From positions 1 to 41,926 of the forward strand of contig JAKPSJ010000060.1 in assembly GCA_029555345.1 (NCBI GenBank): a stretch of 41,926 nucleotides of DNA. The letters are read 5' to 3'. The translations under genes and the position numbers were made by a program. The notes under the pieces were generated by a model. It worked only from the letters and a program-made list of their open reading frames with translations, had not been told where the DNA came from and did not search any database. The DNA is from Methanobacteriota archaeon. GTDB lineage: Archaea > Halobacteriota > Methanomicrobia > Methanomicrobiales > Methanospirillaceae. This document shows positions 32,220 through 37,940 of this stretch, in pieces (the first letter of the stretch is position 1; the number at the start of each line of letters is the position of its first letter).

Positions 32220-33479
32220 TCACGGTGCAGCCTGGTCCGCTGTGATGTTTCCCGCGGGAGCGGCAGGTGTGCTCTCCGGGGTGACCGGCCTGATGCCGAT
32301 GTAGGAACAGTAACCCTTGTAGCATGCGACTGCACCTGCTGTCTGGTTGAAGAAGAGGCGCTGCCTGTTCCCGGTATCCATCATCCAGGAATCTATCGCC
32401 TGGGTCTCTATTCCCGGGACGTAGGCTGTCCACTGCCCGTAGAGGGTCTCGATCAGGAACTCGTTTGGAGAAAATCCGTAACTCCTTTTGAGTGCAAGGG
32501 CAGACGAACCGGTCTTTGGGTTGGTATAGTTCAGGTACTTGTACCCGGCCATGTCCTCCGCCCTCGCGAGAGCGAGATTGTATGCACGCTCATCGAAGAG
32601 GAGGGGGGTTTCACCCTCGGCGGCGCGGAGCCGGTTCAGGTAGAGGACTGCCTGCCTGCTCTCGTCGACAGTCGTGTTCACCTTGAAGGTGCCCCGCGCG
32701 AGCACCTGGAACCAGCCCCCCACGACCGCTACCACGCCCTGGAAGGCATTGCCGGCAGCGACCCTCACTCCCGGGACAGTGACCACGACGAGGACTGCAA
32801 CGAGGAAGATTGCGAGGATGGCGACGAGGAGGGTCAGGGCCCGGCGGGAGAGGAGCGGCTCCCTCTTCTGCCTGGCTGCGGGGATGAGCGGGCTCTCCTT
32901 CTCGAAAGAGTACTCCTCGAGGTGGAGTCCCTGCACGATGGCGTCCATGTCCTGGATCCGGAGCGTGTACCCCGAATCGACGAAGTGCAGCCTCTCGACG
33001 AGGTCGTCGGCGGTGACGATCCTGAACCACTTGACCTTCCGGAAGTCTATCTGCCCCTCCGGGTATGTGCTCCCCCTGCAGAGATAGAGCCATGACGCGG
33101 TCTTTCGCAGGTTCCGCTCCCCGATGTGTGGGATATTTTCGCGGCAGATGGGGATCAACCTGTCGATGAAGTCCTGCCTGTGGATCTTTGCCTGTATGAA
33201 AAGGTTCGGGAGCGTGATCGGGCCGTCCTTTGTCTCCACCACCCAGTTCCCGTTCTCGAGCCCCCGTACCTCCCCCTGGAACGCCTTCAACTCCAGGAGG
33301 ACGGGCCCGTTCCGTGTCAAGATGATGCAGTCGATCTGGCTGTTGGCAACCAGCACGCCGGTGAGGACGTACACAGGCTCCCGGGGGTATTCCTTCCGCA
33401 GGATACTGACGATCTCCTGGAGCTGGCGGAACTCGTGCTCCAGCTTTATTTTCTCTCCCCTGAAAAACCGGATCCCCAT
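32220..33479 (-). CDS. NERD nuclease-like domain - TM - CAP/SCP-like domain fusion protein
   Basis: N-term IDCIILTRNGPVLLELKAFQGEV (NERD), TM ALTLLVAILAIFLVAVLVVVTV, C-term YLNRLRAAEGETPLLFDERAYNLALARAEDMAGYKYLNYTNP...SWMMDTGNRQRLFF (CAP-like). Confidence 0.85.
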   Translation of the reverse strand: MGIRFFRGEKIKLEHEFRQLQEIVSILRKEYPREPVYVLTGVLVANSQIDCIILTRNGPVLLELKAFQGEVRGLENGNWVVETKDGPITLPNLFIQAKIHRQDFIDRLIPICRENIPHIGERNLRKTASWLYLCRGSTYPEGQIDFRKVKWFRIVTADDLVERLHFVDSGYTLRIQDMDAIVQGLHLEEYSFEKESPLIPAARQKREPLLSRRALTLLVAILAIFLVAVLVVVTVPGVRVAAGNAFQGVVAVVGGWFQVLARGTFKVNTTVDESRQAVLYLNRLRAAEGETPLLFDERAYNLALARAEDMAGYKYLNYTNPKTGSSALALKRSYGFSPNEFLIETLYGQWTAYVPGIETQAIDSWMMDTGNRQRLFFNQTAGAVACYKGYCSYIGIRPVTPESTPAAPAGNITADQAAP

Positions 33480-34669: not shown

Positions 34670-34691
34670 ACCGGTGAGGCGACAGCAGAGT

Positions 34692-35210
34692 ATGTCACGA
34701 CGTGACCACCTTTCCCCGGAGCAGAAGTGGCAGGCCGTCACACGATTCGCGACAGCTCTCCCTGTCCTCTATGACATCATGTTCAGGGAAAGGGTGGGTG
34801 AAGAGTACGACGCCCTGGAACAGCAGGTTTGGGTCCATCTCGCAGGCATGGCGCAGGACTTCGCATCAGGGTCCGGACTTCAATCCGGCGACGCGGGGGA
34901 GATCATGGAGACGCTCGGGGCCATCCTCCTCGCCTTCTTCGGACCGGAATTCCGGATGGAGGATATCCCAATCGACCAGGGAAGAGCCGTGCTCATGATC
35001 AAGCGCTGCCCTTTCGTCATCCGCGGAGCCGAGTCGAGGGCAGGGCCCGAGAACCTCTTCCCGCGGTGCCTCGCCTTCTCGATCACGACAGTCGAGTCCC
35101 TGAACCCGGCGTTCACCCTCCGGTTCGTGCGGAGCATGTGCATGGGCGACAGGACATGCGAACTCAAGGTCATGAGGCGCGAGGACGCAGAACGGGACGA
35201 TGCGAAGTGA
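34692..35210 (+). CDS. Conserved hypothetical protein with C-terminal cysteine motif
   Basis: CPFVIRG...RCLAFSITTVESLNPAFTLRFVRSMCMGDRTCELKV. Confidence 0.7.
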   Translation: MSRRDHLSPEQKWQAVTRFATALPVLYDIMFRERVGEEYDALEQQVWVHLAGMAQDFASGSGLQSGDAGEIMETLGAILLAFFGPEFRMEDIPIDQGRAVLMIKRCPFVIRGAESRAGPENLFPRCLAFSITTVESLNPAFTLRFVRSMCMGDRTCELKVMRREDAERDDAK

Positions 35211-35485: not shown

Positions 35486-36166
35486 ATGAGGGTTGGAGTG
35501 CTCTGTTCCGGCGGGAAAGACTCGCTGTTTGCGTGCTTTTGCGCCATGCAGGAAGAGGAGATCTCCTGTCTCATCACGGTGTTCCCGGAAAACCCGGAGA
35601 GCTACATGTTCCACACGCCCAACCTGCACGTAGTAGCGCTCCAGGCGAAAGCATCAGGCATCCCTCTCGTGGCGAGGCAGAGCAGCGGCAGGGAGGATGA
35701 GGAACTGCAGGACCTTGCCCTGGCCATCCGGGAAGCGAGGGAGAAGTACCGCATCGACGGCGTCGTGACGGGTGCGCTCCAGTCGGTCTACCAGTCCTCG
35801 CGGGTCCAGCGCACCTGCCGGGATCTCGGCCTCTGGTGCTTCAACCCCCTCTGGTACGCAGACCCGGGCTCCTACATGGAGACGCTTATCTCTTCGGGTT
35901 TCCGTGCCATCGTCTCAGCTGTCGGATCCGAGCCCTTCGATCCGAGCTGGCTCGGGCGCTCACTGGACCTCTCCGCGCTCCTGGACCTCCGCGAATACGC
36001 GGAGAAGTACGGCACTTCCCTGACAGGCGAGGGGGGTGAATACGAGACCCTCGTCCTCGATGCCCCCTTTTTCCGGCAGAGCATCGTGATCGAGGAGGCG
36101 GAGACCTGCTGGCGGAACTACCGAGGGGTCCTCCGCGTGGCCAGGGCCCGCCTGGAGGAGAAATGA
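35486..36166 (+). CDS. dph6: Diphthine--ammonia ligase (Dph6-type PP-loop ATPase)
   Basis: LCSGGKDSLFACF, VVTGALQSVYQSSRVQRTCRDLGLWCFNPLW, GEGGEYETLVLDAP. Confidence 0.93.
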   Translation: MRVGVLCSGGKDSLFACFCAMQEEEISCLITVFPENPESYMFHTPNLHVVALQAKASGIPLVARQSSGREDEELQDLALAIREAREKYRIDGVVTGALQSVYQSSRVQRTCRDLGLWCFNPLWYADPGSYMETLISSGFRAIVSAVGSEPFDPSWLGRSLDLSALLDLREYAEKYGTSLTGEGGEYETLVLDAPFFRQSIVIEEAETCWRNYRGVLRVARARLEEK

Positions 36167-36732
36167 TCCTCCTCGCGGGACTCGGGTACCGGGACTCGGC
36201 ACTCCTATCGAATGAATTCGTCCGCCCTGTGGGCCGGGTTGTGAAGCGCTTCGGGGATGCATGGATGTACCGCCATTTCACCGATCTTTCGGGGGATCAG
36301 GCAGGGGACTATGACGCCGTCATCCTGTGTGGGACCGCCCTGAAGGATACCCGGTGCCTGGGAGAGACCGAACGGTTCTCATGGCTCCGGGTGGCGCGGG
36401 TCCCCGTCCTCGGGATAAGTGCAGGCATGCAGGTCCTTTCCCTTGCCTTTGGCGGGTCGCTCCTCCCGTGCTGCGAGATCGGGATGGAAGAGGTCCGTGT
36501 CCTCTCCCCGCACCCCCTTCTCCCCCCCTCCCCTTCGTTCATGGCCTATGAACTCCACGCGCACTCGACAGTCCCGCCCGCGGACTGGATCTCTCTTGCG
36601 GTCTCGAAAAACTGCATCCAGGCGATTTCCCACCCGGAGCTCCCCCTCTTCGGGGTCCTATTCCATCCCGAGGTGAGAAACGAGGGGGTCATCGGGGGGT
36701 TCCTTTCGATCGCGCATTCCTGGAAACAATGA
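36163..36732 (+). CDS. Class I glutamine amidotransferase-like protein with Ser at nucleophile position
   Basis: DAVILCGTALKD, VPVLGISAGMQVL (Cys to Ser), VLFHPEVRNEG; ATGA overlap with dph6. Confidence 0.88.
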   Translation: MILLAGLGYRDSALLSNEFVRPVGRVVKRFGDAWMYRHFTDLSGDQAGDYDAVILCGTALKDTRCLGETERFSWLRVARVPVLGISAGMQVLSLAFGGSLLPCCEIGMEEVRVLSPHPLLPPSPSFMAYELHAHSTVPPADWISLAVSKNCIQAISHPELPLFGVLFHPEVRNEGVIGGFLSIAHSWKQ

Positions 36733-36761: not shown

Positions 36762-37940
36762 TCAGGAGACGGGGATCCCGTTCTCCCGGGCGATCGCAAG
36801 AAAAGACTCTGCGACGTACTCTGCCTGGGCGCGGGTTATCCCGTAACAGTTGAACTTCCACACCCTGGTCGCGCCCGGGATTATCCCGGCGATTCCCCGG
36901 GATTTGAGGGCGCTCGTGAAAAAGAACCCTTTCTTCCTGTGCGCCGCGGCCACGCGATCGAACGACTGCGTGGTGTCGACACGCGTCAGCGTGTGCTGCC
37001 TCGGGTACTGGCTCACGATGACCGTCCCGCTGATCCGCCGGAGGGCGTCGACCACGAGGCCCGTGTTGCCGAGCTCGGCATCCCACGTCCCGACGCGCTC
37101 TTTCACGGCAGGAAACGAGGCCATCATCGCGACGAGGGTCACTCCCATGAGGGTGCACCCCATCATCTCCACCTCCTTGATCCCGAACGTCCGCGAAGTG
37201 ACGTCCGTCCGGGTGGTAGTCGTCCTGAAGACCTCGGAGGCCCGCTCGCTCCTTGCTGCAAGGACACCCGAAGGGGCGGGTGCCGCCATGCTCTTGTGGC
37301 CGGAGCCAACGACGAAATCGACCCCGAGGTCCTTTCCGTCCACGGGCATGACCCCGACGGTGTAGGCCCCGTTGAGCAGGACAGGGATGTCGTACTGGTG
37401 AGCGACCCGCGCAATCTCCCTGGCGGGGTGGAGGTTTCCGTAGCTGTAATCCACGTGGTCGAGGAAGAGGAGCGGCGGGGTCTTTCCCGTCTCCCTGACG
37501 ACTGCCTCTATCTTGTCTGCTGCTGCATCGGGGGTGATGATGTTTCCGGGCGACCGGGGGATCTCCCTCGGGACGCCGCCGCGGGCCTCGATCGCGAGGA
37601 CTTCCGTGTAGTGGGAGAGCGCAGTTATCAGGACAGGGTCCCCCTTCTCCACGTACGTATCTGCAACCGCCTGGAAACCCCGGCGGGCTCCCGGCACGAC
37701 CCTTGCCGCGTCCATCCCGACAAATTCGGCAAGTTCCCGGTGGAACCGGTCGATCGGTGGTTTCTGTATGTAGTCCAGCCTGTTGGGCTTCCTGCAGTTA
37801 TCGCACACCGAGTACCCGTCGCAGTACGCGATCAGCGCCTTCATCGCCCCGGGTGTGAGTCGGCCCCCTGCCTGGATGGGGTCGATGTTGATGTACGCCT
37901 CCTCGACGTCCCGCACGTCGATGTCTCCTGCACACTTCAT
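36762..37940 (-). CDS. pscS: O-phospho-L-seryl-tRNA:Cys-tRNA synthase (SepCysS)
   Basis: YINIDPIQAGGRLTPGAMKALIAYCDGYSVCDNCRKPNRLDYIQKPPIDRFH, VVGSGHKSMAAPAPSGVL. Confidence 0.97.
   Translation of the reverse strand: MKCAGDIDVRDVEEAYINIDPIQAGGRLTPGAMKALIAYCDGYSVCDNCRKPNRLDYIQKPPIDRFHRELAEFVGMDAARVVPGARRGFQAVADTYVEKGDPVLITALSHYTEVLAIEARGGVPREIPRSPGNIITPDAAADKIEAVVRETGKTPPLLFLDHVDYSYGNLHPAREIARVAHQYDIPVLLNGAYTVGVMPVDGKDLGVDFVVGSGHKSMAAPAPSGVLAARSERASEVFRTTTTRTDVTSRTFGIKEVEMMGCTLMGVTLVAMMASFPAVKERVGTWDAELGNTGLVVDALRRISGTVIVSQYPRQHTLTRVDTTQSFDRVAAAHRKKGFFFTSALKSRGIAGIIPGATRVWKFNCYGITRAQAEYVAESFLAIARENGIPVS

Follow-up and report, generated by a model that had tools for sequence, protein, structure and literature searches.

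In the window, by which we mean the whole stretch of 41,926 nucleotides of archaeal DNA analysed here, a gene encoding a homologue of the class-I glutamine amidotransferases (GATases) overlaps the end of a dph6 gene. Dph6 is the enzyme that completes the diphthamide modification of elongation factor 2 (EF-2). The features of this gene pair are given below.

35486-36166, + strand: dph6, archaeal diphthine--ammonia ligase (PP-loop ATP pyrophosphatase) of the GATase-coupled lineage; TIGR03679, PF01902, EGGEYE motif, paired clade
36163-36166, + strand: ATGA in which the dph6 stop and the GATase start codon overlap; read from the sequence, with 155 of 180 loci showing the same -4 overlap
36163-36732, + strand: class-I GATase-like subunit, predicted to be glutaminase-dead; PF00117, AlphaFold2, Foldseek
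36331-36336, + strand: Gly57-Thr58; unchanged across 132 aligned members in the counts of changes per column
36418-36420, + strand: AGT codon for Ser86 at the position of the catalytic Cys; L004 and L006, which are near relatives, have TGT here
36664-36681, + strand: His168-Pro-Glu170-Val-Arg-Asn173, the remaining triad residues and the family-specific PEVRN motif, kept; sequence and alignment

The GATase gene encodes a protein of 189 residues, whose translation reads VPVLGISAGMQ in the nucleophile region (ATA AGT GCA GGC ATG CAG) and FHPEVRNEG further on, with His168 and Glu170 intact; the Ser at the nucleophile position and the retained His-Pro-Glu motif reported in the original prediction are thus both present. 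The membership of the class-I family is indicated by a match to PF00117 (E-value 5.8e-14, 52.6 bits against a cut-off of 22.8) and by the fold, since the AlphaFold2 model built with 57 relatives (pLDDT 94.3, pTM 0.92) has GMP-synthase subunit A (2a9v, TM 0.83) as its best PDB match in Foldseek. The catalytic triad of Cys-His-Glu is represented by Ser86-His168-Glu170. Judged by its sequence, the protein is a class-I GATase homologue and not a catalytically complete member. The F-x-PEV-(R/L)-N motif and the invariant residues E18, G57, T58, D62, G88 and G107 are all present, of which Gly57-Thr58 would, from the position in the fold, probably form the oxyanion-hole side.

Archaeal GMP synthase subunit A, GuaA-A (2a9v, 1wl8 and 7d97 of M. 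jannaschii), shares with the window protein the class-I GATase fold and is likewise a small separate subunit that supplies a PP-loop ATP pyrophosphatase with ammonia. The two differ, however, in sequence (about 21-24% identity), in the PEVRN motif of the window GATase and in its partner, which is Dph6. No NCBIfam equivalog has been reached by the window GATase, the nearest being GMP synthase subunit A, and both models of that subunit score far under their cut-offs (NF001975, 51.5 of 198 bits; TIGR00888, 43.2 of 172.15 bits). Besides, the window genome encodes two other class-I GATases, L002 (GICLGL, GuaA-A-like) and L003 (GVCLGH), and its separate GuaA-A-like and TrpG/PabA-like proteins both retain the Cys.

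The identification of the upstream gene as dph6 holds, with 257 bits to the TIGR03679 equivalog against a cut-off of 197.3, a further match to PF01902 and the sequence EGGEYE, an instance of the EGG(D/E)xE motif that distinguishes true Dph6 from other DUF71 proteins (PMC3585130). The overlap is real as well, for dph6 ends at 36166 and the ATG of the GATase gene lies at 36163. The window assembly is a draft, 76% complete, in which the archaeal Dph2 family has been found. The search of this incomplete assembly for dph5 and for a full-length EF-2 has found neither; as EF-2 is essential, these are probably assembly gaps.

Linkage to dph6 and to one Dph6 lineage

Relatives of the GATase have been identified at 72 named loci and in 116 of the 232 genomes of the order, with more in other families of the phylum; the order-wide search, at its cut-off, misses Methanomicrobium mobile among the matches listed in spite of its fusion described below, and counts of absence are therefore approximate. 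The hosts include Methanomicrobiales, Methanotrichaceae-like genomes, Marine Group III and DPANN archaea, and among the named hosts of the Dph6-linked GATase are Methanolinea, Methanoculleus, Methanospirillum and Methanomicrobium. NCBIfam has no separate model for this family.

The query patterns used for the GATase had no dph6 content, and dph6 adjoins the GATase gene in 71 of the 72 named loci. In the remaining locus (L076) the GATase match begins 30 bases from the contig end. Every other neighbour from the window that was tested lies near the GATase in at most 14 of the 72 named loci, some of which are short. The conservation of the linkage in other genomes, on which the original prediction depended, is thus nearly universal, and the ATGA overlap is not due to chance, because the -4 arrangement recurs so widely.

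In some genomes the two proteins are encoded in a single open reading frame. Such Dph6-GATase fusions are found in a Methanomicrobium mobile isolate (476 residues) and in a related goat-gut genome (L093, 464 residues), and a second family, f21, has at least eight loci fused in frame that contain no runs of N (L241, L243, L247, L250, L251, L252, L254 and L257). Another candidate fusion, L014, has been rejected, since its join spans a run of N that appears as XX in the translation. The halves of the L093 fusion match separately in Foldseek to the Dph6 PF0828 and to GATases of the GMP-synthase type. The AlphaFold2 model of this fusion, for which only two alignment rows were themselves fused, has a pTM of 0.89 and a pLDDT of 90.8. 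Two domains free to move against each other would not be expected to reach such a pTM, which suggests a defined placement of the Dph6 and GATase domains.

Dph6 is present in 131 of the 136 genomes of the order searched at 90% completeness or more. In a Dph6 tree of sampled genomes, in which sampling is partial, one fully supported branch parts 71 rows paired with the GATase from 19 that stand alone. The window Dph6 groups in the paired clade, so that the window GATase joins the Dph6-coupled family by this placement as well as by the ATGA overlap. One genome, G038, carries both types of Dph6. The sampled genomes without the GATase carry the separate, solo Dph6 clade, so that the GATase goes with one lineage of Dph6 and not merely with a chromosomal place. 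Simple gene loss as the account of its absence has been rejected, as the Dph6 tree of the sampled genomes ties absence to a different Dph6. The proposed coupling to Dph6 is backed by the conservation of that overlap, by fusions in two families and by the tracking of one Dph6 lineage.

Replacement of the nucleophile and selection on the GATase

A first set of 133 distinct members comprises 99 with Cys-His-Glu, 32 with Ser and 2 with Gly at the nucleophile position. Ser, the commonest replacement, is carried by the window protein and by all Methanoculleus-type sequences examined (about 30 Methanoculleus sequences), and Gly by Methanomicrobium mobile and one further methanogen. In a Methanothrix-like genus of family f21 (g68) the gene has been kept, but its nucleophile is Ser or, in one species, Ala, and the His site is occupied by Asn, Asp or Ser; at five loci of this genus (L213, L216, L217, L220 and L222) the overlap with dph6 has given way to a gap of about 4-21 bases. 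One Methanoculleus-type member, L117, has Tyr at His168. Ser is not a trait of the family, for most homologues keep the full triad, and the window copy is a derived and probably inactive version. The possibility named in the original prediction that all homologues might carry Cys is answered by Ser, Gly or Ala having been fixed independently elsewhere.

The window Ser is encoded by AGT and that of Methanoculleus by TCC or TCT, the Cys members having TGT or TGC. Since these Ser codons differ, the replacement arose separately in the two. The trees were computed in the 'quick' mode. The Cys/non-Cys label requires 4 changes on the tree of the smaller set, which was built without the nucleophile column, and 5 on the extended tree that includes other families, all of them forced by well-supported (starred) branches. 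The nucleophile has been lost independently at least five times: in the window, in Methanoculleus, in M. mobile, in the further methanogen and in the Methanothrix-like genus. Within the window's own genus, the 11 other genomes that have the gene all encode Cys, and Ser is private to the window lineage. Because most members keep Cys, the ancestral job of the protein was very likely the production of ammonia from glutamine for Dph6. In a separate member, L223, the Cys is kept and the catalytic His is replaced by Tyr (FYPEVLN), the dyad being lost from the other side.

For the GATase, pairwise dN/dS has a median of 0.33 within the Ser members and 0.36 within the Cys members, the pairs being not independent. 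When the window is compared with L004, dN/dS is 0.23 in the GATase gene and 0.25 in dph6. The median dN of the GATase relative to that of Dph6 is 2.0 in the Ser clade against 1.6 for Cys members, a rise that allows mild relaxation. Nine columns never change (E18, G57, T58, D62, G88, G107, F167, P169 and E170). Column 86 changes six times and column 168 five times, and a few other well-conserved columns change about equally often. Apart from the nucleophile, the protein stays under purifying selection. Cys86 aside, the loss lineages show shifts at few of the columns that are at least 85% conserved among Cys members. This pattern is that of a protein kept for a non-chemical role, in the simplest case its place in the complex. 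Shared compensating changes of Dph6 in the loss lineages have also been sought, with nothing consistent found.

Candidate role and alternative explanations

We consider it fairly probable that the archaeal diphthamide synthetase of this lineage has two subunits, a Dph6 working with free ammonia and a glutaminase-dead GATase, the window protein, which has been kept alongside it. The ancestral GATase would hydrolyse glutamine at Cys86-His168-Glu170, and the ammonia would pass to the diphthine carboxylate activated by ATP in Dph6. The change of Cys86 to Ser in the window lineage is expected to abolish the hydrolysis of glutamine, after which Dph6 may take free ammonia as the eukaryotic enzyme does; yeast Dph6 uses ammonium (PMC5354562). 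The GATase fold would have been kept for the needs of this Dph6 lineage, as structural support, ammonia conduit or regulator, and the two proteins would form a physical complex. The other Ser, Gly or Ala members may likewise rely on free ammonia with the fold still supporting Dph6. This division, with the Cys members supplying ammonia, is drawn by analogy with yeast Dph6 and human CPS1, in which a class-I GATase domain is kept with Ser294 in place of Cys and external ammonia is used (PMC4655335). CPS1 offers a natural Cys-to-Ser loss in a retained domain of the same class; unlike the Dph6-linked family, with its several independent losses in one microbial family, it is a multidomain carbamoyl phosphate synthetase. 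Of the roles named in the original prediction, that of an ammonia-handling subunit is the one that the comparisons favour. A broader proposal is more doubtful, though possible: that the whole archaeal Dph6 lineage is a glutamine-dependent two-subunit enzyme, whose glutaminase subunit became a pseudoenzyme independently in at least five lineages and, beyond mere survival, took on a newly selected role, controlling Dph6 and hence EF-2 modification allosterically or as a scaffold.

A glutamine sensor, binding glutamine without hydrolysing it and tuning Dph6 to nitrogen status, is an unlikely reading of the Ser protein. The window keeps His168, Glu170, Gly57-Thr58, Gly88 and Gln90, and the Ser lineages show no change at most of the pocket columns, but the Methanothrix-like genus keeps the gene after losing His too, with the nucleophile Ala in one species, and the Tyr of L117 would be unexpected if an intact glutamine pocket were selected in all lineages. 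The occurrence of Gly twice and Ala once at the nucleophile and the loss of His in one genus argue against Ser being a working nucleophile of a glutaminase or a different hydrolase. The otherwise intact triad in the window and nearly all Methanoculleus and the frequency of Ser among the replacements would suit such an enzyme, which we nevertheless find very improbable, as the change from Cys to Ser is the explanation given for the lost use of glutamine in human CPS1 (PMC4655335).

The catalytic Cys might also have drifted off in a gene on its way out, and the solo-Dph6 relatives that manage without any GATase and the slightly raised relative dN in the Ser clade are in line with early decay. 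Such decay is improbable, however, with the reading frame and overlap intact, a dN/dS that is well below 1 and not raised between the window and L004, and Ser held across the Methanoculleus sequences. The slightest chance is given to an error of assembly or base calling that conceals a Cys. The Ser of the window is known from a single draft genome, its congeners with the gene all have Cys, and a single T-to-A difference separates TGT from AGT; yet the reading frame is otherwise clean, the other GATases of the genome keep their Cys, and similar losses occur in other lineages, including genomes of a single contig. A link of Ser to ammonia-rich habitats was considered separately, Methanoculleus bourgensis being ammonia tolerant (PMC12776343), and is at most a tentative idea, for no simple rule of habitat accommodates the close Cys relatives and a loss lineage that is Methanothrix-like.

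Amidotransferases of the GAT-II type have an N-terminal nucleophile and a fold unrelated to class I. GAT-II/AsnB and RidA fusions have been listed as possible ammonia sources by De Crecy-Lagard et al. 2012 (PMC3541065). The archaeal AsnB/GAT-II-DUF71 fusions of Methanohalophilus and others also place a glutamine amidotransferase on Dph6/DUF71 as a proposed ammonia source (PMC3541065), but contain an extra PP-loop domain, whereas the partner of the window type belongs to class I and usually has its own gene, which overlaps dph6. The RidA (YjgF) domains of yeast and plant Dph6 have similarly been suggested to supply ammonia (PMC3585130), and are unrelated to class-I GATases in fold and chemistry. 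A search of the open-access literature has found no class-I GATase partner of Dph6. Where earlier work looked to GAT-II or RidA domains as the ammonia source in certain organisms, the conserved class-I partner offers a direct candidate. Because nature provides Cys, Ser, Gly, Ala and His-less members next to the same synthetase, the return of a glutamine-dependent enzyme to free ammonia can be tested on them, as can the origin and maintenance of pseudoenzymes. The automatic label 'glutamine amidotransferase' is probably wrong for the Ser, Gly and Ala members.

Other genes at these loci

The solo Dph6 lineage of Methanomicrobiales (L263-L280 and L282) is never beside a GATase in the sample, and at many of its loci Dph6 is followed by an open frame of about 500-600 codons resembling a membrane protein. 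In the window, the gene at 36762-37940 (- strand) encodes a PLP-dependent protein of the SepSecS / aminotransferase class V type, possibly Sep-tRNA:Cys-tRNA synthase, which lies near the pair in 14 of the 72 named loci. A protein of 178 residues (34674-35210, + strand), with no Pfam family above the cut-off, lies near the pair in 9 of the 72. The gene at 32220-33479 (- strand) encodes an unusual pairing of an N-terminal NERD domain with a C-terminal CAP/SCP domain.
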